From contig DAIDHX010000154.1 of the NCBI GenBank assembly GCA_027451885.1, positions 1 through 42,946 of the forward strand: 42,946 nt of DNA, written 5' to 3'. The notes beneath the pieces were generated by a model, which was not told where the DNA came from, ran no database searches, and saw only the letters and a list, made by a program, of their open reading frames with translations. Positions 11,885-36,576 of this stretch are shown one piece after another (the first letter of the stretch is position 1; each line of letters opens with the position of its first letter). The stretch is from Planctomycetales bacterium. GTDB taxonomy: Bacteria; Planctomycetota; Planctomycetia; Isosphaerales; Isosphaeraceae. Both the position numbers and the translations under genes were made by a program.

Positions 11885-14572
11885 GTGCCAGAACCGTCAC
11901 GAGACGACATGAATCAGCCGTCGGGAAGCGATCCTTCCTCCGAGCCGACGATCGACCGCGCATCGCCAGCGGAGGCGGAGGCAACCGCACCTGCCGCGCC
12001 CGCTCCTGTTCAGACGGGGAGCTCGATCGGTCCGTACCGTGTGCTCGATCGCCTTGGCGAAGGGGGGATGGGTGTTGTTTACCTGGCCCAGCAGGAGACC
12101 CCTGTTCGCCGGCGTGTCGCGCTTAAGATCATCAAGCCAGGTATGGATAGCGAACAGGTGATCGCCCGCTTCGAGGCCGAACGGCAGGCGCTCGCGCTCA
12201 TGGATCATCCTCATATCGCCCGCGTTCTGGACTGCGGCGCGGATCCGAGCGGACGACCTTACTTCGTGATGGAGCTTGTGCGGGGTCTGCCGATCACGAC
12301 CTATTGCGATCAAAACAAGCTCGATACGCGCGAGCGGCTTGACCTTTTCGTGCCCGTTTGCCAGGCGATCCAGCATGCACATCAAAAGGGGATCATTCAC
12401 CGCGACGTCAAGCCCTCGAACATCCTGGTCACCGAATACGACGGCAAGCGCGTGGCCAAGGTGATCGACTTCGGCGTCGCCCGCGCGGTGGATCATCGCC
12501 TGACTGATCGTACTCTGTACACCCAGATGGGGGCCGTGGTGGGTACATTCGAGTACATGAGTCCGGAGCAGGCGGATCCGGCCGCGCGGGACGTCGATAC
12601 CCGGGCCGACGTGTATTCGCTGGGCGTCGTGCTCTACGAGCTACTCACAAGCAGCACGCCGCTGGATCGCGCCCGGCTCAGGAAATCAGCCTATGCCGAG
12701 ATCCTGAGACGCATTCGCGAGGAGGAGCCTCCCAGGCCGAGCACGCGGGTCACGCAATCGCGCGAGAACCTCGCAGCGATCTCGCAACAGCGGCGTACCG
12801 ATCCCGCGAGGCTGAGAAAGCTGCTCAGGGGCGATCTCGACTGGGTGGTCATGAAGGCGATCGAGAAGGACCGTTCACGGCGCTATGATTCGGCGGGGAG
12901 CCTGGCGAAGGAGCTGGAGCGCTATCTCGCCCAGGAGCCCGTGGAGGCAGGCCCGCCCACGGCGTCCTATCGCCTGCGCAAGCTGGCGGGCAAATATCGC
13001 ACAGCGCTCGTGACGGCGGCCGCGTTCGCGGCGATCCTGATCACGGGCTCGGTGCTGCTTGCGCTCCTGTCAGTTCGGGAGTATCACGCGCGGCAGCGGG
13101 CGACCGAACTGGCCACCGTGGCGGAACGCGCGCGCTACCGGGCCGAGAGAGCCGAACGCGAGGCCCGGCTCAAACAGGTGGAAAGCGATGCCGCCGCGGC
13201 CGATTCCCGCGCTGTGCTCGAGTTCTTCGAGAACCGCGTGCTCGCCGCCGCCCGGCCCAGGGAGCAGGACGGCGGCCTGGGCATCGAGACCACGATTCGC
13301 CAGGCCGTCGACGCCGCCGTGCCCCAGGTCGCCCGCTCGTTCGCCGACCGGCCGCTCGTCCAGGCCGCGATCCGCCGCGCCATCGGCATCACATATGAGC
13401 ATATCGGAGACTTACCAGCCGCGATCTCCCAGCTCGAGCAAAGTTTCGAGCTGCGCAGAGCCAGGCTCGGCCCGGATGATCCACTCACCCTGGAATCGAT
13501 GACCGACCTGGCGTATGTCCTCTCCGAGGGGGGCGATGCGAGTCGCGCAGTCGAACTGGCGCGCGAAGCGCTCAGCCGGCTCAGGGCGTCGCTGCGCGAG
13601 GATCACCCCCGAATCCCCGGCGCCCAGGATGTGCTGGCCACCGCGCTTGTCGCCGCCGGGAAATTTGCCGACTCCGTGCCCATCTTTGAATCCGCACTCG
13701 AACACTCCCGTTTGATCGCCGGCCTGAGCAGCCCGGAAACCATCTCGATCATGGGGAATCTCGCCAACGCACTTGAGCGCACAGGGCGGACAGACGAGGC
13801 AATCACCCTCCAGGAACAGACGCTCAAGCTCTCGCGCCAGGTGTTTGGATCAGGGCATCCCTCAACATTAACTGCAATCAACAATCTTTCCTGGTTTTAT
13901 CGGAACAAGGGCCGCTTTGCCGAATCTCTGCCGCTCGTCCAGGAGTCGCTCGCCCTGCGCACCGAGCGGCTAGGCCCAGAACATCCCCATACTCTTTTTT
14001 CCATGAACGACCTGGCGCTCGCCTACGCGGACGCGCGGCAATTCGACAGGGCGATTCCTCTCTTTGAGGAGGTTTTGAAGCTCCGCACCAGGGTTCATGG
14101 AGAGCGCCACCAGTACACGCTCTACACCATGAACGACCTGGGCGAGGCCTATCTTGCGAGCGGTCGGGGCGATCCTGCTCGCACGCTTCTGAAACGCGCG
14201 TACGCCGCCAGCCAGGAAGCGCTTGGGCCGGATCATCACGACACGCTGAATTGCGGGCGCAACCTCGCGCGCGCCCTGCTCGAGGTGGATCCGGTCGCGG
14301 CGGAGCAAACCATTCGCCCCATCTACGAAATCCGCCGCAAGAAGGCTCCTCGCTCCTGGCTCGTCTTCGACGCGGAGAGCCTGCTTGGCGCGAGCCTGGC
14401 GAGGCAGAAGCGATTGGCCGAGGCCAGGCCGCTGCTCCAGGAAGCCGCGCGCGAGCTGGAAGCCCAAAACAGCAAGATCGTTCCGCTCTACAAGAGCCGG
14501 ATCACAGAAGCCCAGGAACGATTGCGAGCCCTCAGCGCGGCTCAGGCAACCCGTGGCAATTCAGGTAAGTAA
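11885..14572 (+). CDS. Transmembrane serine/threonine protein kinase with C-terminal TPR repeats
   Basis: 895 residues from a GTG at 11885 preceded by GAGGA; an ATG at 11909 is the alternative. The Hanks-type kinase domain spans about 50-350. It has the Gly loop LGEGGMGVVY (57-66), the ATP-anchoring Lys81, catalytic HRDVKPSN (172-179), DFG (195-197) and SPEQ (226-229) in the activation segment, all intact. The insert before the last helices (VMKAIEKDRSRRYDS) is typical of planctomycete kinases. One transmembrane helix follows (about 373-396), then an Ala/Glu/Arg-rich juxtamembrane coiled coil. The outside part is a chain of about 42-residue TPRs (about 500-860), several with the LGPDHPxTL-type spacing of kinesin-light-chain repeats. 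Probably an envelope sensor or scaffold; targets unknown. Confidence 0.9.
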   Translation: MPEPSRDDMNQPSGSDPSSEPTIDRASPAEAEATAPAAPAPVQTGSSIGPYRVLDRLGEGGMGVVYLAQQETPVRRRVALKIIKPGMDSEQVIARFEAERQALALMDHPHIARVLDCGADPSGRPYFVMELVRGLPITTYCDQNKLDTRERLDLFVPVCQAIQHAHQKGIIHRDVKPSNILVTEYDGKRVAKVIDFGVARAVDHRLTDRTLYTQMGAVVGTFEYMSPEQADPAARDVDTRADVYSLGVVLYELLTSSTPLDRARLRKSAYAEILRRIREEEPPRPSTRVTQSRENLAAISQQRRTDPARLRKLLRGDLDWVVMKAIEKDRSRRYDSAGSLAKELERYLAQEPVEAGPPTASYRLRKLAGKYRTALVTAAAFAAILITGSVLLALLSVREYHARQRATELATVAERARYRAERAEREARLKQVESDAAAADSRAVLEFFENRVLAAARPREQDGGLGIETTIRQAVDAAVPQVARSFADRPLVQAAIRRAIGITYEHIGDLPAAISQLEQSFELRRARLGPDDPLTLESMTDLAYVLSEGGDASRAVELAREALSRLRASLREDHPRIPGAQDVLATALVAAGKFADSVPIFESALEHSRLIAGLSSPETISIMGNLANALERTGRTDEAITLQEQTLKLSRQVFGSGHPSTLTAINNLSWFYRNKGRFAESLPLVQESLALRTERLGPEHPHTLFSMNDLALAYADARQFDRAIPLFEEVLKLRTRVHGERHQYTLYTMNDLGEAYLASGRGDPARTLLKRAYAASQEALGPDHHDTLNCGRNLARALLEVDPVAAEQTIRPIYEIRRKKAPRSWLVFDAESLLGASLARQKRLAEARPLLQEAARELEAQNSKIVPLYKSRITEAQERLRALSAAQATRGNSGK

Positions 14573-14801
14573 GTTCCCTGATGAACCAGAACGCAGATGG
14601 CGCGACCCTTGCCGCAGCCTCCAAATGTCAACGATTCAAACACAGCGCGGTCGAGCATCACGTTCGCCCCTCGCCTTGCTTTGCCCCTTGTCCGTGTGGC
14701 CTCATCGCGTTTTGACCAAAGTGTCATGCACAATGGCCAGTCATATCTCATGTGTATGTACATCCATTGATGTAATTGTTTGTTATCTACATTGTTCTCT
14801 C
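14573..14801. other. Intergenic stretch with an AT-rich island
   Basis: No gene is supported between the kinase stop and the hairpin region. From about 14735 to 14800 the sequence is markedly AT-rich (repeated tgtatgtaca/ttgatgtaattg-like stretches) against a GC-rich background. This is compatible with a promoter/upstream region for the short transcript proposed at 14838 or with foreign DNA. I see no tRNA or transposon end in it. Confidence 0.5.
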
Positions 14802-27304: not shown

Positions 27305-27766
27305 GGCGCACGCCGCCTCCTTCTGCCTCGACTCAGTTCGCCAACGCGATCGCTCGGTTCAGGTTATCCGCTCGGGAAGGTCCAGGGCTAGCGCGCGCCA
27401 GCGACGGCACCCACGCCATGCCATCGCCCTGTCCCTGGGCCGTGGAACCAGCTCAACCGCGCGGGTCGTTCCGGGGGCGCGGCGAGAACCAGTTCTGACG
27501 GTCATTCGCACAGCGCAGGTCCGTGAAGCTCGATCGAACTTGCCGAGAATACAGGCTGTTTAAGTGATTGACATAGGGCCTGGGAAAACCTTGCGTTCTG
27601 GGAAAATAGAACCGTTAGGAAATTTGGAGAAACTTCTTGAAGGAACTTCGCTTCGCCGGACGAAACCTAGGAGTGAGTTGGCGGTCTCGCGCCTTGGCGG
27701 AGCCATTCCAGCGCGAAGCACCGATCGAGCGCCTGAGTCGGTCCGGAGTGATTAGTGGAGCGACAG
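27305..27766. other. Divergent intergenic region upstream of the YTV gene
   Basis: 462 bases with no supported gene; frames open here belong to the antisense of the SDR gene or are chance. It must carry promoters for the SDR-argJ pair (minus) and the YTV gene (plus). TTGACA at 27568-27573 is a perfect -35 hexamer facing the YTV gene, but the -10 region 17-18 bases later (TTGCGT/TGCGTT) is poor, so an activator or another sigma factor may be used. A leader of about 170 nt would result. Confidence 0.45.
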
Positions 27767-30031
27767 ATGTTGAGATTACCGCGGTCGGTTGTGCTTTTGG
27801 CCCTGGGACTGGGCCTGAGCGTAGCCGCCCACCCGGCGCAGGGAGCGAGTTACGCGGGTGGAGCATCGTTTCGAGTTTGCCCCGTGCCCCAGGAGTGTGA
27901 TGGGCACATTCAGTATCAACTCCAGCGTCAGACGGTCATCCAGAATGTGCCGGAGACCGTTTATGACACCCAGGTTGTGCCGGTGGTGCGCACCGTAAGC
28001 GAAACGGTGATGCAGCCCCGGACCATCAATGTCACGCGGAACGTCGTGGATCATCTGGTGCGCGACGAGCCGTACACCATCCAGCAGCCGATTTACCGAA
28101 CCGTTCAACAGGAGGTGCGTTACAACGTCACGCGCCCCGTTGTGCGAACGGTCTGGAAGGACGTGGCGTACACGGTCAATCAGCCGGTCCGCGAGACGCA
28201 TCTCGAGAACCGGTCGTACACCGTCGAGCGCCCGGTGCGGGAGACCTCGTTCAAGACCTGCGCGTACACCGTGAACCGGCAAGTGCGCGAGACCTCGTAC
28301 AAGGACGTCTGCTACACGGTATGCCAGCCGGTGCAGGAAACCGTCTACAAAACGGTGCCCTACACGGTTTGCCGCCCGGTGCAGGAGACGTGCTACAAGA
28401 CGGTGGCATACACGGTTTGCCGGGCTGTTCAGCGCGTGAAGTCGCGCTGCGTGCCTTACACCGTGCAGGTGCCGGTCCAGTACACCGTCATGCAGTGCCA
28501 GGCGGAGACCGAGATGGTCCCCGTCCGACGCTGTGCCTACAAGCAGGTCGCTTACACGGTCTGCAAGCCGGTGTGCGAGACGGTCATGCAGGAGTGCCGG
28601 TACACGGTCCAGCGGCCGGTGACACGCACCGAGTATCGCACCTGCTCCTACAACGTCTGCCGCACCATCCGTGAGTCCGTGCTCAAGGAATGCCGTTACA
28701 CCGTTTGCAAACCTGTTCAAACGACAAGCTACAAGACGGTCTCGCGCACCTGCTACAAGACAGTCACCGAGACCGGCTGCCGCGAAGTCTGCGAGAAGGT
28801 CTGCACGCCCAGGACCGTGATGAAGCCCGTCACCCGCACCTGCTACGAGACCGTCGTGCAGAAGGTGTACGTGCCTGGCAAGTCGGTCTGCGTCAACGGC
28901 TGCCTCTACGAGTGCCCCGGCACCTGGTGCGAGAAGGTCGTCAAGTGCCCGCGCACGGTCACTGAAAACGTGGCCTGCACGGTCTACGAGACCGAGTACG
29001 TGCGCAAGCAGGTTCCGTTCACGGTCTGCAAGCAGGTGCCGTACACGGTCTGCGAGCAGGTGCCGGTGGTGACCTGCCAGATGGTGGCCGAGGAGTGCGT
29101 GCGCCAGGTCCCCGTCACGGTCTGCCGCCAGGTCGTCGAGACCCAGACCAGGCAGGTCCCCGTGACCGTTTGCGAATATGTCACCCAGGAATGCGTCAAG
29201 CAGGTTCCCGTGACGGTCCGCAAGACGGTCCAGGAAACCTGCTACAAGACGGTGCCGTACACGGTCTGCACCATGGAGCCCCGCACGGTGACCAAGCGGG
29301 TGCCCGTGTCGATGACCAGGTACTGCCCCCGGACCGCCTATCGCCGCGAGAACTACACGGTCACCGAGTACGACCCGGTGAAGTGCACGAAGCAGGTTCC
29401 TTATACCGTGACGCGGATGGTTCGCGAGACCGCGACCAGGCAGGTCCCCTGCACCGTGACACGGATGGTACCCAGAACGTGCACCAGGCGGGTGCCGATC
29501 GTCACCTGCCGCACCGTCCAGGATGTCTGCTACAAGCAGGTTCCCGTGACCACCTGCCGGATGGTGAGCGAGGTCTGCACCAGGCAGGTCCCCGTGACCA
29601 CTTGCCGGATGGTTCAGGTCCCCTGCGTGAAGCGGGTCTGCGAGAAGGTTTGCGAAACGGTGGTCGATCCGTGCGTGAAGTACGTGCCGGTGACAACCTG
29701 CGAGATGCGGACGATCCAGTGCGTGCGGAAGGTGCCTTACACGGTGTGCCGGCAGGTGGTCGAGCCCAAAACGATCTGCTGCCCCGTGACGGTGTGCCGC
29801 CAGGTGGTTGAGAACAAGACCATCTGCACGCCTCGGACCGTGTGCAAGCAGGTTCCGGTGGAGGTCTGCGTGAAGGTGCCCGTGGTTGTGCACTGCGAGC
29901 CGGTGGTGATGCCCTCGTCGCAGAGCGTGATGGCCTCGAGCCAGGCGCCCTTCACGACGGTTCCCCCCTGCGACCCGTGCGACGCCCGCTACCCGATCCT
30001 CGGCCGCAAGCACGCCAAATGGCTGCACTGA
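27767..30031 (+). CDS. Secreted Cys-rich YTV-repeat protein (planctomycete cell-envelope type)
   Basis: 754 residues from the ATG at 27767, with GGAG six bases upstream. A signal peptide (LPRSVVLLALGLGLSVAAHPAQGAS) would be cut after about residue 26. Almost all the rest is a repeat of about 16 residues, (Y/V)TVC(R/K)xVxETxYKxVP, with about 16 exact YTV triplets plus VTV, VTT and FTV variants, and about 60 Cys (8%). Stretches near 29530-29610 repeat almost exactly at DNA level with a 48-bp period, a sign of recent unit duplication. YTV domains are known from planctomycetes and are thought to make crosslinked, beta-rich envelope or wall material. A central insert (VCVNGCLYECPGTWCEK) breaks the repeats, and the C-terminus ends PPCDPCDARYP then a basic tail. 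A terminator follows. Confidence 0.88.
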   Translation: MLRLPRSVVLLALGLGLSVAAHPAQGASYAGGASFRVCPVPQECDGHIQYQLQRQTVIQNVPETVYDTQVVPVVRTVSETVMQPRTINVTRNVVDHLVRDEPYTIQQPIYRTVQQEVRYNVTRPVVRTVWKDVAYTVNQPVRETHLENRSYTVERPVRETSFKTCAYTVNRQVRETSYKDVCYTVCQPVQETVYKTVPYTVCRPVQETCYKTVAYTVCRAVQRVKSRCVPYTVQVPVQYTVMQCQAETEMVPVRRCAYKQVAYTVCKPVCETVMQECRYTVQRPVTRTEYRTCSYNVCRTIRESVLKECRYTVCKPVQTTSYKTVSRTCYKTVTETGCREVCEKVCTPRTVMKPVTRTCYETVVQKVYVPGKSVCVNGCLYECPGTWCEKVVKCPRTVTENVACTVYETEYVRKQVPFTVCKQVPYTVCEQVPVVTCQMVAEECVRQVPVTVCRQVVETQTRQVPVTVCEYVTQECVKQVPVTVRKTVQETCYKTVPYTVCTMEPRTVTKRVPVSMTRYCPRTAYRRENYTVTEYDPVKCTKQVPYTVTRMVRETATRQVPCTVTRMVPRTCTRRVPIVTCRTVQDVCYKQVPVTTCRMVSEVCTRQVPVTTCRMVQVPCVKRVCEKVCETVVDPCVKYVPVTTCEMRTIQCVRKVPYTVCRQVVEPKTICCPVTVCRQVVENKTICTPRTVCKQVPVEVCVKVPVVVHCEPVVMPSSQSVMASSQAPFTTVPPCDPCDARYPILGRKHAKWLH

Positions 30032-30894: not shown

Positions 30895-33684
30895 TCAGCT
30901 CGCGGATGTGCTGGATGGGGCCTGGCGCCCGCGTGTGAACCGCGCGAATTTTGCAAGCTCCACGACGGTCACGGGCAGCAAGGCAAACGGCAAAATGTGC
31001 AGCCAGTCCGCTCCGGGCTGCGCTGGGATGTCGAACACGGGGTGAAGGAGCGGCAGAGTCGCCACCGTGAACTGTAACAAGGCGGAAGCCGTGATGGCCG
31101 CGAAGAGATAAGGATTGGTGAAAAGCCCCAGTTCGGGGAGTGTGAATCGCTGGCTGCGGCATGCGAACGAGAAGAAGAGCTGGGTCAGCGCGAGCGTGCA
31201 GAAGGCCGTGGTGCGTGCGCGATGAACATCGCCGGTTGTCCCATGGCTGTAAGCGAACGCGGCAACCCCCACAACACCCATGAGGGTGCCGTGGGCAAGC
31301 ATCCGCAGCCCTCCCTCGCGCGTGATGATCCGCTCGCGCGGCGGCCGCGGCGGCCTGCGCATGATGTCGCGCTCAGGCGGCTCCAGCCCAAGCGCAAGCG
31401 CAGGGAGCCCGTCGCTGACCAGATTGAGCCAAAGAAGCTGGATCGCCGTCAAAGGCGCAGGCCAACCGACCACCGCGGCGGCCAGCATGATCAGGATCTC
31501 GCTCACATTGCTGGCGAGCAGGTAATGAATACATTTTCGGATATTGTCATAAATACCTCGGCCTTCCGCGACCGCGCTCACGATGGACGTGAAATCGTCA
31601 TCGGTGAGCACCATGTCGGATGCCTCTTTCGTGACGTCGGTGCCGGTGACACCCATGGCGATGCCGATGTCGGCAGCCCTGACGGCGGGCGCATCGTTCA
31701 CGCCGTCTCCCGTCATGGCCACCACGTCCCCCCGCGCTTTCCAGGCACGCACGATCCGAAGCTTGTGCTCGGCCGAGACGCGGGCGTAGACCGAGACGCC
31801 GGCCACGATCGAGGCAAGCTGGGCGTCGTCGAGGGCGTCGATCTCATGGCCGGTGAGCACGCGGTCGAGTTCGCGTGCGATGCCGAGCTCCCGCGCGATC
31901 GCAAGCGCGGTGGCGGGATGGTCGCCCGTGATCATGACCGGCTTGATGCCCGCGTCGCGGCAGGTCTGGACCGCGGCCCCGACCTCGCCGCGAGGCGGAT
32001 CGATCATGCCCACGAGGCCCACGAACACGAGGTCGTGTTCCCGGCGCACGCTTTCGTGATGGCGCGAAGGATGGTGGCGATCGGCGAGCGCCAGCACCCG
32101 GAGCGCCCGGTGCGCCATGTCCGCGGCGGCGTGCAGAATCTCCTTGCGCCGTGCCGCCGTCAAAGCCTCGATCCGACCGTGCCGCCATTCTCGATTGCAA
32201 AGTCCCAGGATGACCTCCGGCGCGCCCTTGGTGTACATCGTCGCGGAATCATCCGCGCCACGAACCACCACCGACATCGCCTTCCGCTCCGAATCGAAAG
32301 GGATCTCGTGCAGGACGTGCTTCTCTCGCTCGTGAGCGTGCACCCTTGCCTTGCGAGCAGCGACCACAAGCGCGCCTTCGGTCGGATCGCCGACGACTTG
32401 CCAGCCCGCCTCACCGTCGGTGCGGGGAGAAAGCCGCGCCGAGCCGCACCACGCCGCGATCCGCATCGCACGCATCAGGTCCGGCCAGTCCTGCGGTTCA
32501 ACAGACTCCCCGAACCCACTCTGACCTTCCACGCGGCGATGATGGAACCCGCCGCTCGGCTCATAGCCCACGCCACTCACGTGAAAATGGGCGCTGCCAG
32601 TCACCACCTCACGGACCGTCATCTCGTTGCGCGTGAGCGTGCCGGTCTTGTCGGAACAGATCACCGTCACAGCCCCAAGCGTCTCCACGCTCGGCAGCTC
32701 GCGCACAAGCGCATTGCGCCGCACGAGCCGTTGCAGGCCAATGGCGAGCACAAGCGTCACCACGGCGGGCAGGCCCTCCGGCACCGCCGCAACCGCCAGG
32801 CTCACCGAAAGCAGAAACGATTCCAGCAAATCACCGCCGCGGAGCAACCGCAGCACAAGAATCACCGCCACGATGCCCAGAACGGTGCCCAGAAGCACTT
32901 TTCCGAGCTCGGCCAGCCGGCGCTGGAGCGGCGTTTGCGGCGCCTCCGTTTCCTCGAGAAGACCGGCGATCTTACCCAGCTCGGTGGCCATCCCGGTGGC
33001 CACAACCACCGCGTCGGCCTTACCGGCTGTGAGATTCGTACCAAGAAAAACCATGTTCCCGCGGTCTCCAACCGCCGACGCGCGATCGAGAACCGCGTGC
33101 GCATCCTTCGCGACCGAGGTTGATTCACCGGTGAGCGCGGATTCCTGTGCCAGAACCTCGTAGGAGTGGATGAGACGTGCATCGGCCGGAACACGGTCGC
33201 CTGCCTCGAGTGCGATTCGATCGCCGGGAACAAGCTCCCGCGCTGGGATCACCCGCAGACCGCCGCCGCGAAGTGCCTTCGCCACAGGCGCGGAAAGCCT
33301 CCGCAACGACGCAATCGCCCGCCTGGCCCGCTCTTCCTGAACAAATCCAAGCACGCCGTTCAGCAGCACAATCGCCAGGATCGCCAGTGTGTCGATCCAG
33401 TCGCCCAGGAATCCCGAGAGAATCGCGGCCGCAAGCAGGATGCCAATGACAGGCTCCAGAAATTGACGGGCGAATCGCCAAAAGCCTGGTGAAATTCGTG
33501 GCTCTGCAAGCTGATTCAGCCCGGCAGCCTTCTGACGCAACGCGACTTCGTCGTCACTGAGGCCCCGTCCCGGGTCGACCGCAAGACGATCAAGAACGTC
33601 TTCGATCGGAAGTGCATGCGGCGCAGCGAGTGCGAACGGCTCGCGAGGATCCACCGCGTCATTTGCCGGCGACTGTGAGGCCAT
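30895..33684 (-). CDS. P2-type cation-transporting ATPase (Ca2+-ATPase-like)
   Basis: 929 residues. An N-terminal cation-ATPase domain (about 22-75) is followed by transmembrane segments M1-M2 (about 76-115) and the actuator domain with TGES (185-188). M4 carries VPEGLPA (301-307), then come the phosphorylated Asp345 in SDKTGTLT, a nucleotide domain with KGAPE, the hinge MTGDGVNDAPA, and M5-M10. M6 reads LLWLNLVSDGLPALALGLEPPERDIM. PEGLPA together with NLVSDGLPALALG is the signature of P2A/P2B-type Ca2+ or Mn2+ pumps; a Na+/K+ specificity is less likely. It probably exports Ca2+ from the cytoplasm. It is divergent from the DNase II gene (251 bases apart) and precedes rdgB on the same strand. 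Confidence 0.9.
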   Translation of the reverse strand: MASQSPANDAVDPREPFALAAPHALPIEDVLDRLAVDPGRGLSDDEVALRQKAAGLNQLAEPRISPGFWRFARQFLEPVIGILLAAAILSGFLGDWIDTLAILAIVLLNGVLGFVQEERARRAIASLRRLSAPVAKALRGGGLRVIPARELVPGDRIALEAGDRVPADARLIHSYEVLAQESALTGESTSVAKDAHAVLDRASAVGDRGNMVFLGTNLTAGKADAVVVATGMATELGKIAGLLEETEAPQTPLQRRLAELGKVLLGTVLGIVAVILVLRLLRGGDLLESFLLSVSLAVAAVPEGLPAVVTLVLAIGLQRLVRRNALVRELPSVETLGAVTVICSDKTGTLTRNEMTVREVVTGSAHFHVSGVGYEPSGGFHHRRVEGQSGFGESVEPQDWPDLMRAMRIAAWCGSARLSPRTDGEAGWQVVGDPTEGALVVAARKARVHAHEREKHVLHEIPFDSERKAMSVVVRGADDSATMYTKGAPEVILGLCNREWRHGRIEALTAARRKEILHAAADMAHRALRVLALADRHHPSRHHESVRREHDLVFVGLVGMIDPPRGEVGAAVQTCRDAGIKPVMITGDHPATALAIARELGIARELDRVLTGHEIDALDDAQLASIVAGVSVYARVSAEHKLRIVRAWKARGDVVAMTGDGVNDAPAVRAADIGIAMGVTGTDVTKEASDMVLTDDDFTSIVSAVAEGRGIYDNIRKCIHYLLASNVSEILIMLAAAVVGWPAPLTAIQLLWLNLVSDGLPALALGLEPPERDIMRRPPRPPRERIITREGGLRMLAHGTLMGVVGVAAFAYSHGTTGDVHRARTTAFCTLALTQLFFSFACRSQRFTLPELGLFTNPYLFAAITASALLQFTVATLPLLHPVFDIPAQPGADWLHILPFALLPVTVVELAKFARFTRGRQAPSSTSAS

Positions 33685-33935
33685 CGCATGGTCCTCTCCC
33701 GCTCACCGAGCAGAAGACCTCGGCGACTCTCCCGCTCATTCTAGAAAACCAGGGCCCAAAACGCGACCAGGGCCAGGCCCCATACAGGCGGACCGGCCAC
33801 GGGGATCGCGGCTCGATCCAGGTGCCTCGCGGCCGTCGCCCCACCTTGAATTCGAATTCAACTACTCGAAAGCGCGTTATGGTCAAGGCAGCGGCGCACG
33901 ACGCATTTCCTTGCAATTCGAAAGCGAAGGTTACC

Positions 33936-35075
33936 ATGCCTTTATCCGCACTCGCTGACAACGGCCAGCCGATCGACTGGTGGTTCATGTACAAGGCGGC
34001 AGGCAAATCCGTGGCCAGCGGAACCGCGCTCGGCCTTGGAACCGAATACGTCTATTTTGATTCGAGCATGGCCGCGGCCGGGCGGCTCACGCTGTCCTCG
34101 CACCACGTGGACCGCGACGGCGCCTTGCCAAACACGCTCGCTCAGCTTTACGGCAAGACCGCGGCGGCGAACCCCAATCTCGGCTGGTACTTCTACAACG
34201 ACGAAAACCCCATCACCGGGAAAACCAACGGGTCGCGCGGCCATACAAAAGGCGTGCTCGCGTTCGATCTCGACTCCAGCACTGCGTTCTGGCTCATCCA
34301 GTCGACGCCCAGGTTCCCACCGAAAGGCGCGTACGCGTTCCCCAGAACCGGCGAGCCAAACGCACAGACGTTTCTCTGCATCACGCTCCAGGACGCCAGC
34401 GTCGCTCAGCAAATCGCCAGGCAGATGTATGCCGCCCAGCAGCCGAACGTCTACCTCGCATCGGGTATTCCCGCAAAGCTCCAGAACACGCCCGATGATC
34501 CCCGCGTGCTGCTCATCAAGGACCAGGTTGCCAGCGGCGGCACTCCGCTCTCCGCCGTGCTGCCGTTCCACTCAAAAGGCGGCACCAAGTTCCTGGCCAT
34601 GGCCAAGAACAAAACCTGGGGGCTCGACTTCTATAACGACCTCGTCGGCCCCGCGCTTCATGAGAATCTCGACGTGGAAACCTGGGAGCACGACCCCAAA
34701 CCGCCGTCGCTCGACAGCGACAAGATCCACACCGTGGTCGACATGAAGGGGATCAACCTCGCGCCGCTGGGAATCGATATTTCCTGGCCTGAGCCAGACG
34801 ACCACGCCAAGCTGGCGATCTCGGCCCGGTCGGAAGCGACCCATTTCGTCTGCGTGGGGGACATCAACTTCACGATCGCCCAGCGCAAGCGTGGAGGCGG
34901 CACCGTGGCGTTCCAGTGCGAGCCGTTATGGCAAAGCCTGTCGATGTGCCTGGTCGACGTGACGACCCATCTCAAACAGAACTCGCGGGCCGCCAGGCTC
35001 GCCGCCGCGCGCAAGGCCAGCACAAAACCAGCCAGGAAAACGAAGCGAGCCGACTCAAACCCGCAACGGGCTTGA
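33936..35075 (+). CDS. Deoxyribonuclease II family protein with both HxK motifs
   Basis: 379 residues from the ATG at 33936, with GAAGG six bases upstream; an in-frame ATG at 33879 would add 19 residues. It shows the DNase II pattern throughout: GQPIDWWFMYK at the start, SRGHTKGVLAFD (His103-Thr-Lys105), FWLIQSTPRFPP, TFLCITL, KTWGLDFYNDLVGPALHENLDVETW, DHAKLAISA (His290-Ala-Lys292), HFVCVGDINFTIAQRKRGGG and LWQSL. In animal DNase II the two HxK motifs form the divalent-metal-independent active site of a phospholipase-D-like pseudodimer, and both are present here. Animal enzymes are lysosomal with signal peptides; none is visible here. The C-terminal 30 residues are strongly basic (KPARKTKR). 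The role in the cell is unknown. Confidence 0.85.
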   Translation: MPLSALADNGQPIDWWFMYKAAGKSVASGTALGLGTEYVYFDSSMAAAGRLTLSSHHVDRDGALPNTLAQLYGKTAAANPNLGWYFYNDENPITGKTNGSRGHTKGVLAFDLDSSTAFWLIQSTPRFPPKGAYAFPRTGEPNAQTFLCITLQDASVAQQIARQMYAAQQPNVYLASGIPAKLQNTPDDPRVLLIKDQVASGGTPLSAVLPFHSKGGTKFLAMAKNKTWGLDFYNDLVGPALHENLDVETWEHDPKPPSLDSDKIHTVVDMKGINLAPLGIDISWPEPDDHAKLAISARSEATHFVCVGDINFTIAQRKRGGGTVAFQCEPLWQSLSMCLVDVTTHLKQNSRAARLAAARKASTKPARKTKRADSNPQRA

Positions 35076-35135
35076 GCCGGCTCAAGATCCCAGGCTCGTA
35101 AACGAGCAGGCACGCTTGCTCGGGCGAGTCCTCGA

Positions 35136-36299
35136 TTACTTGATGCCTTCCTTCATGGCATCGAGGTCGGTGAGCGCGATGGCCGGCACGATCATGGTGT
35201 CGAGGCCGCGGCTGTTCTTATCCGATTTGAGCATCGGGACCGCCATCTTGAGCAGTTGCTCGCGCACCAGACCCGCGTTGCGGTCGACGGCCGAGTTGAA
35301 CGAGCCGACATAGACGCGGCTCGAGGTGCGGTCGTGATAAACATAAACCGGTTGCCCGAGCTGCTGGAATTCCGGCTGCCTGGCGAGCTTGTCCGCCAGG
35401 CGCTCGGCATCGGTGGCGGCGGTGCGCAGCGGGCTCGTGCGCAGGTCGTGCTGATTGGGATTCTGATTCTCGGAACCATTGAAGATATAGGAGGTACGAC
35501 CAGAGAACTCCGCGACCTGCAAGCTGAAGCGGCCCGGGCAGTTGGCGATGCTCCGGTTCCCGCTGTTCATCTGGATCATGAGTCGGTCGCGGGTCTTGGG
35601 ATAGAGGTTCTGCGCGGCGACATAGGGATTGGTGGTCCGCAGCGCATAGGAGAGCCCCTTCCGCCACCAGTAGGGAGACGACATGCCTTTCAGGCACTTG
35701 GGATCCAGCGTTTTCACATATTTGAGCAGTTTTTCGGAGCCTGCCAGGGTCTTTTCGTTGCCCACGAGCACGGAGGCCTCGTCCATCGTGCGAATCTTTT
35801 CCGGCATGCGGATGTTGGTCTTCATGACCTCGCTGCCGGCCGTGGGGGGTGCGCCGCGAATCAGACTCTTGCCGGGATAGTCCTTGGTCCGCAGGATGAA
35901 GGCGGGGAGCCCAAAGTCGTTGCGCAGTTCCTTCACAAGCGCGAGGGCCATGCGCTCGGAGTCCGGCCCGCGGAAGGTTCGCGCCAGCACCATGAAGGGA
36001 CCCACATCCTTGGTGAGCAGGTAGGGCTCGATCGGCTCGTTGGGGAGTTCGATCGAAGGCGCCTTGAGATTGTCCGCGGGGGTCAGTTCCGGGCCGTTCT
36101 CGGCTTTGCGTACCTTGGGGTCCTTGGTGCGGCTGGCGCTATAGAACGGGTCGCGGGCGATGGCGCCCAGCGATGATCCCTGCCCCGCGCCGGCCGATCC
36201 CGCGCCGAGCCCCTGACCTGGAAATGGCGCCGGCGCCTGTCCCCACGCGGGCATGGTCGCGGCCAGGGAGAGTGCGGCCGCGGTCAACATCGCTTTCAT
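35136..36299 (-). CDS. Exported protein of unknown function (SPOR-like C-terminal part)
   Basis: 387 residues from the ATG at 36299, with AAGGA nearby upstream; the frame runs on to 36401 without support. The signal peptide KAMLTAAALSLAATMPAWGQ is cut near residue 20, and a Pro/Gly-rich linker follows. Two parts then have the feel of SPOR or sporulation-related repeats that read amino acid pairs against a strand: GPFMVLARTFRGPDSERMALALVKELRNDFGLPAFIL (about 98-135) and DAERLADKLARQPEFQQLGQPVYVYHDRTSSRVYVGSFN (about 300-345). Between them lies a Gly/Ser-poor region with YWWRKGLSYALRTTNPYVAAQNLYP. I do not recognise a named family. It is probably periplasmic. It is the next minus-strand gene after rph, 277 bases away. 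Confidence 0.65.
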   Translation of the reverse strand: MKAMLTAAALSLAATMPAWGQAPAPFPGQGLGAGSAGAGQGSSLGAIARDPFYSASRTKDPKVRKAENGPELTPADNLKAPSIELPNEPIEPYLLTKDVGPFMVLARTFRGPDSERMALALVKELRNDFGLPAFILRTKDYPGKSLIRGAPPTAGSEVMKTNIRMPEKIRTMDEASVLVGNEKTLAGSEKLLKYVKTLDPKCLKGMSSPYWWRKGLSYALRTTNPYVAAQNLYPKTRDRLMIQMNSGNRSIANCPGRFSLQVAEFSGRTSYIFNGSENQNPNQHDLRTSPLRTAATDAERLADKLARQPEFQQLGQPVYVYHDRTSSRVYVGSFNSAVDRNAGLVREQLLKMAVPMLKSDKNSRGLDTMIVPAIALTDLDAMKEGIK

Positions 36300-36576
36300 G
36301 GGAGATCCTTCTCCTGACGAAAAGGGGCGTGCCTCGATCAGGCAGGGCCCCACGCGAACCCCCGCATCCAACAGGGGCGGGACGGGTCGTTCCAAAAACA
36401 AGATCCACCGCCGGCGCAGGCGCGAACTCGCGCAAGAGAGGAACGCCGGCAGCTCAATGTTGGTCTGTTACCACATCGCGCAAATACTGCCAAGAGCGCT
36501 TCGACCGAAATCACTTCAATCCCGCCCACCACGCCCCTCGGCTCGGGGTGGAAGAACCGCGTCGAACGGCTGCGGT

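Follow-up and report, generated by a model that had tools for sequence, protein, structure and literature searches.

DNase II belongs to textbook lysosomal biology, and its occurrence in bacteria raises the question of how a cytosol tolerates a nonspecific, metal-independent nuclease, and for what purpose; the absence of a leader in bacterial copies, together with their DNA-binding-like tails, makes that question a sharp one. Here, we examine one such copy in a stretch of 42,946 nucleotides from a Planctomycetales bacterium (contig DAIDHX010000154.1), which we will call the window. An earlier note, made from the sequence, had recognized a DNase II homologue with a complete active site, no visible signal peptide, and a basic C-terminal tail, and had asked where the protein acts and how it was acquired.

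The gene (Table 1) has an intact reading frame from ATG to TGA, a GC3 of 0.81, and host-like codon usage and base composition. DNase_II (PF03265) is the single Pfam family matched, at E = 7.1e-71 and 239.5 bits against a curated cut-off of 23 bits, with residues 7–341 covering positions 4–322 of the 326-position profile. Using phmmer against solved structures, the match is PDB 5i3e, the DNase II of Burkholderia thailandensis (E = 2.8e-65, residues 4 to 343). These two matches, far above chance, bear out the identity proposed earlier, and we regard membership in the DNase II family as practically certain. The same cannot be said of the surprise originally attached to a bacterial DNase II: the homologue stands, but the novelty does not, because the B. 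thailandensis structure is already solved and the window gene is a further member of a known bacterial family. That structure (5i3e/5unb) is reportedly the work of Varela-Ramirez et al. (2017, Nucleic Acids Res 45:6217). The B. thailandensis DNase II work is cited in PMC10783504 and PMC11430429. Downstream, a predicted terminator hairpin sits between convergent genes and overlaps the end of the DNase II ORF.

Table 1. Features of the DNase II gene and its neighbor in the window, and members of the UDG-fold family at other loci (locus handle before the coordinates).
Feature	Position	Strand	Remarks
DNase II homologue	33936..35075	+	379 aa, PLD-superfamily endonuclease; Pfam, 5i3e, AlphaFold2 model
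Shine–Dalgarno-like GAAGG	33926..33930	+	5 nt upstream of ATG; by sequence
First HxK motif, His103-Thr-Lys105	34242..34250	+	H103/K105 invariant, 21 aligned rows
Second HxK motif, His290-Ala-Lys292	34803..34811	+	H290/K292 invariant, 21 aligned rows
Basic low-confidence C-terminal tail	34941..35072	+	residues 336–379; 11 K/R, 2 D/E in last 44 aa
Hairpin with T-run, probable terminator	35046..35084	.	18-pair stem, - strand scan; consensus match only
Calcium-type P-type ATPase, divergent neighbor	30895..33684	-	TIGR01522, 714 bits, below the NCBIfam cut-off of 798
UDG-fold family beside DNase II	L047:6670-7932	-	unannotated
UDG-fold family, two copies	L082:850-1875, 13224-14606		unannotated
UDG-fold family	L012:4840-6201		unannotated
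UDG-fold family	L050:4235-5560	-	unannotated
UDG-fold family	L061:8619-9869		unannotated
UDG-fold family	L010:3796-4899		unannotated
UDG-fold N-terminal parts of fusions	L010:7468-10296, L011:8669-11272, L012:8624-11626

The residue numbers given earlier for the two HxK motifs proved exact, and all four residues are invariant across the 21 diverse rows of our alignment, as are N88, D89, E90, D289, D309, R319, and G321. An AlphaFold2 model built from 19 window and locus sequences reached a mean pLDDT of 80.9 and a pTM of 0.84. With this model, Foldseek ranked 5i3e/5unb first (E about 1e-26, probability 1.00), and VIA-align superposed it on 5i3e_B with Z = 34.9 over 307 residues at 3.1 Å and 38% identity. 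The runners-up were PLD4, PLD3, phospholipase D, and TDP1 (Z about 9–11), among Foldseek candidates only, so that the absence of other folds from this comparison is uninformative. The modeled protein thus shares the PLD-superfamily fold of the solved bacterial DNase II. The earlier reading hinged on the two HxK motifs coming together in a structure model, and the model agrees indirectly, with both motifs predicted to lie inside the core that aligns with the solved enzyme. The enzyme is complete and probably working. It resembles the B. thailandensis protein in fold, in identity (38–40%), in both HxK motifs, and in its leaderless start, but differs in its basic tail and in belonging to another subclade, the B. 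pyrrocinia copy serving as proxy.

Animal DNase II enters the secretory route via a signal peptide. The window protein shares the Pfam family, the two HxK motifs, and the core length with the animal lysosomal enzyme (as judged from an alignment of sequences other than animal ones), but it has no signal peptide and so falls outside the secreted or lysosomal DNases of the animal type. The highest 12-residue Kyte–Doolittle mean in the first 40 residues is 0.93, and the longest possible upstream extension reaches 0.72, with no hydrophobic segment; a signal peptide concealed by an alternative start codon is therefore ruled out, and the earlier observation holds with any start. We scanned 84,980 species genomes and obtained 97 relatives. 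The best 80, together with L002 (which seems to come from the same genome as L047) and L003 (from a B. pyrrocinia plasmid), make up 82 loci, 81 of them carrying the first conserved motif. In 78 of these 81, the nearest start codon lies 7–25 residues upstream of that motif, usually 12, and the other three (L010–L012) are fusion proteins. The solved B. thailandensis DNase II aligns from its own residue 1 (VIA-align). Since the relatives either start this close to the first motif or are fusions, leader absence is, judged from predicted starts, the rule across the bacterial family and no oddity of the planctomycete copy.

One site raised at the outset was the periplasm or a vesicle-like compartment, where the nuclease would digest taken-up DNA. 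Planctomycete membranes are invaginated and an acid optimum would suit an acidified compartment, but the export signal is absent for every choice of start codon; the proposed site is left unsupported, and we consider this explanation very improbable indeed. Because no export signal is present, the protein would be cytosolic.

The basic tail described in the earlier note is confirmed by its composition (Table 1), and pLDDT falls to 45–57 over residues 341–379. Within the window's subclade, lysine/arginine-rich tails occur in L004–L006, L008, and L010–L012, reach a net charge of up to +54, and include histone H1-like KKAAPKK runs. They also arise separately in L014, L015, L026, L032, L034, and L042; elsewhere in the family the tail is either missing or a short conserved APPGHTR...LI..TH stretch, and the tails of several relatives are short, neutral, or mildly acidic. 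In the fusions of L010 and L012, which join a UDG-fold protein to DNase II, the tails are histone H1-like, lysine-rich, 149–161 residues long, and exceed a net charge of +50. From this composition, the tail probably holds the enzyme on DNA; it may also be a mere disordered end, which counts against tethering.

DNase II cleaves DNA without metal and with an acid optimum: one histidine attacks the phosphorus to give a phosphohistidine intermediate, and the other is the general acid. In the window protein, the two HxK motifs would build a single active site in which one histidine would make this attack, a phosphohistidine would form, and the other histidine would bring about release, so that cutting of DNA would need no metal and would be most efficient at acid pH. 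For DNase II, the reported range is pH 4.5–5.5, and divalent cations are not needed (PMC11430429). The protein would remain in the cytosol, or exit only through lysis, and its tail would keep it on DNA. Its likeliest job would be the destruction of DNA inside the cell, whether the cell's own DNA when it is dying or acidified or DNA that has invaded, and the enzyme would be held in check by its low activity at normal cytosolic pH. Beyond the family, fold, catalytic residues, missing leader, tail, and insertion, which the analysis shows, we infer activity, cytosolic location, acid gating, and job, and we give the statement as a whole about an even chance of being right. What speaks against it is the acid preference of DNase II, since acidification of the cytosol would be unusual.

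An acid optimum suits the outside of the cell better than the cytosol, and one might instead picture a released or non-classically exported nuclease that leaves the cell through lysis or some unrecognized path and, in acidic habitats, breaks down DNA in the surroundings to obtain phosphate and nucleosides. The gene clusters around other copies, computed from the ORFs of the 82 loci (the best 80 of 97 relatives plus L002 and L003), fit such a scavenger in that 28 of 82 loci have a phospholipase-C-like (PLC-like) phosphoesterase (PF04185) no more than 10 kb away, usually as the immediate neighbor, and a metallophosphoesterase and an acid-phosphatase-like HAD are also found among the clustered phosphoesterases. 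These PLC-like partners, however, are as leaderless as the nuclease itself, which lacks a signal peptide in the window copy and in the 78 relatives counted above, the others being fusions. Nor were sheath genes of a contractile injection system (PF04984, PF05943) found in the genome, which is about 98% complete, so that a sheath gene could be missed; by this evidence the protein does not class as cargo of such a system, whether T6SS or phage-tail-like. Taken together, release is unlikely. Examples of PF04185 proteins without a signal peptide are L016:11320-12846, L073:11109-13352 (- strand), and L008:735-2270; the window's own genome has one weak PF04185 match (G000:C120), away from DNase II.

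A second partner family, unmatched in Pfam and NCBIfam, is a neighbor of DNase II in ten loci and forms the N-terminal part of a fusion with it in L010, L011, and L012; 11 loci contain it overall. The model of this partner (pLDDT 76, pTM 0.83) meets family-4 uracil-DNA glycosylases at a Foldseek E of only 5e-3 and with a VIA Z of 12.9 (187/194 residues, 3.0 Å), and by-eye reading of the alignment finds AAPG and NHPS stretches that recall glycosylase motifs. The partner would therefore have a uracil-DNA-glycosylase (UDG) fold, and one should bear in mind that a fold alone shows no function. Of 49 genomes with DNase II, 12 contain the family; most of these 12 supplied the query or its neighbors, and L023, L025, and L036 are the three outside that set. 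Among 392 genomes of the phylum, it occurs in one, which is the other DNase II-bearing genome. The window's genome gave no match to the query (A2) that does match in G264, so the window copy does not belong to the DNase II/UDG-fold module of other bacteria.

Such partners bring to mind a DNA-repair or end-processing enzyme like TDP1, which would remove blocked ends or cut damaged sites with the tail as a DNA clamp. PLD3 and PLD4 are single-strand 5' exonucleases and TDP1 is an end-processing enzyme; with their PLD-superfamily fold and two HxK motifs, they are the next closest folds to the window protein (Z about 10), and other copies are fused to or lie beside the UDG-fold protein and also lie beside glutathione-metabolism genes. 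By sequence, though, these are separate families, and the full-length likeness is to the endonuclease DNase II and not to TDP1 (Z 34.9 vs. about 10); with no UDG-fold protein found in the window's genome, we judge a repair role distinctly unlikely. In L080–L083, DNase II lies in a run with glutathione synthetase, GCS2, an AIG2-like gamma-glutamyl cyclotransferase, a kinase-STAND-cyclase protein, and one or two UDG-fold members.

By analogy, the leaderless PLC-like neighbors (28/82) and the UDG-fold partner (11 loci) suggest that other bacterial copies likewise act on substrates inside the cell. On a broader and more tentative view, which we hold to be on the unlikely side, bacterial DNase II would be no stray secreted enzyme; it would supply DNA cleavage to a cytosolic module for destruction or base excision that is passed from phylum to phylum. 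The module would consist of a leaderless DNase II whose tail resembles histones, a UDG-fold glycosylase-like protein, and a leaderless PLC-like enzyme, sometimes with kinase-STAND regulators alongside, and the window copy would be a solitary tail-tethered derivative. Because the window copy stands alone, what is inferred from the neighbors of other bacteria may not carry over to it. No description of family-wide leader absence with UDG-fold and PLC-like partners was found in the literature searched. The window gene by itself is a modest result, namely one more horizontally acquired gene whose place in a known bacterial family is well supported; the part worth following is the family-wide leader absence plus these partners, the recurrent pairing of which elsewhere renders the question of role testable.

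Invading DNA was one of the targets considered above, and the gene could more specifically be an anti-phage effector, possibly of a yet undescribed system. It is rare, patchy, and horizontally moving, and elsewhere it adjoins signalling and nucleosidase-superfamily proteins. Large kinase-AAA/STAND-GAF-cyclase or GGDEF proteins lie near DNase II in Oceanospirillales-type and Algoriphagus-type loci, although the 27-locus total for this cluster overstates the link because the cluster is promiscuous; their kinase part resembles PD-T4-6 defence kinases in PADLOC, but the match is generic. L005 and L006, the closest clustered relatives of the window copy, share with L007 and B. pyrrocinia (L003) a run made up of a protein of roughly 950–980 aa, small unknowns, a metallophosphoesterase, and a ferritin-like protein; the large protein carries a nucleosidase-superfamily stretch that, in B. 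pyrrocinia, scores above the Pfam threshold. The L005 and L006 copies head this cluster. The window copy has neither these partners nor any sensor or other partner beside it, the 966-aa neighbor protein and PF12902 were not found in its genome, and the nuclease itself has no PADLOC family and so belongs to no known anti-phage system by those models. We therefore consider an anti-phage role improbable. Across Proteobacteria, Acidobacteria, and Bacteroidota, a conserved run of this composition, its nucleosidase-superfamily protein measuring about 970 aa, stands beside DNase II at L003:9131-15277 and in L005, L006, L007, and L066.

How, then, was the gene acquired? Of 45 genomes from the window's family, 1 carries DNase II, and of 392 genomes sampled from the phylum, 2 do; the gene family is rare, and its distribution over phyla is patchy. 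The closest relatives of the window copy are a Proteobacteria MAG (L004) and two Acidobacteria MAGs (L005, L006), with 68, 66, and 64% identity, respectively, and basic tails of their own. In a quick tree without eukaryotes, in which MAG labels can be wrong, these group with the window copy at an SH-aLRT of 97, and the Planctomycetota label requires at least four changes. Sequence kinship thus indicates that the gene is horizontally acquired and that, because the nearest kin at 64–68% are bacterial, the immediate donor was a bacterium and not an animal. Direct transfer from an animal as the immediate source was rejected on the same kinship, in a comparison without eukaryotic sequences; of the phylogeny proposed in the earlier note, it is the bacterial part that was run. 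Searches for carriers gave 0 matches in phage records, 0 in viral contigs, and one plasmid match (Burkholderia pyrrocinia, 40%).

The flanks point to where the gene went in. We examined four relatives, one of them from the same genus. In each, a single contig carries rdgB and the counterpart of the 35136-36401 gene, and neither the ATPase nor DNase II separates them; the spacing in the same-genus relative is about 245 bp. In the window, both the P-type ATPase and DNase II stand in that interval. This supports a local two-gene insertion. The flanking gene order matches that of family relatives, so a binning error is unlikely and a misbinned contig was rejected. The two genes may have arrived together, although no convincing direct repeats flank the insertion and the ATPase adjoins no other DNase II locus. 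A functional link between the two was dropped on the latter ground.

Two other genes of the window deserve mention. The 35136-36401 protein, which forms the flank of the insertion, has no Pfam match and is present in 41 of the 45 family genomes. At 27755-30031 lies a cysteine-rich, 758-aa YTV-repeat protein (PF07639, E = 5e-52), the position of which is conserved in family relatives.
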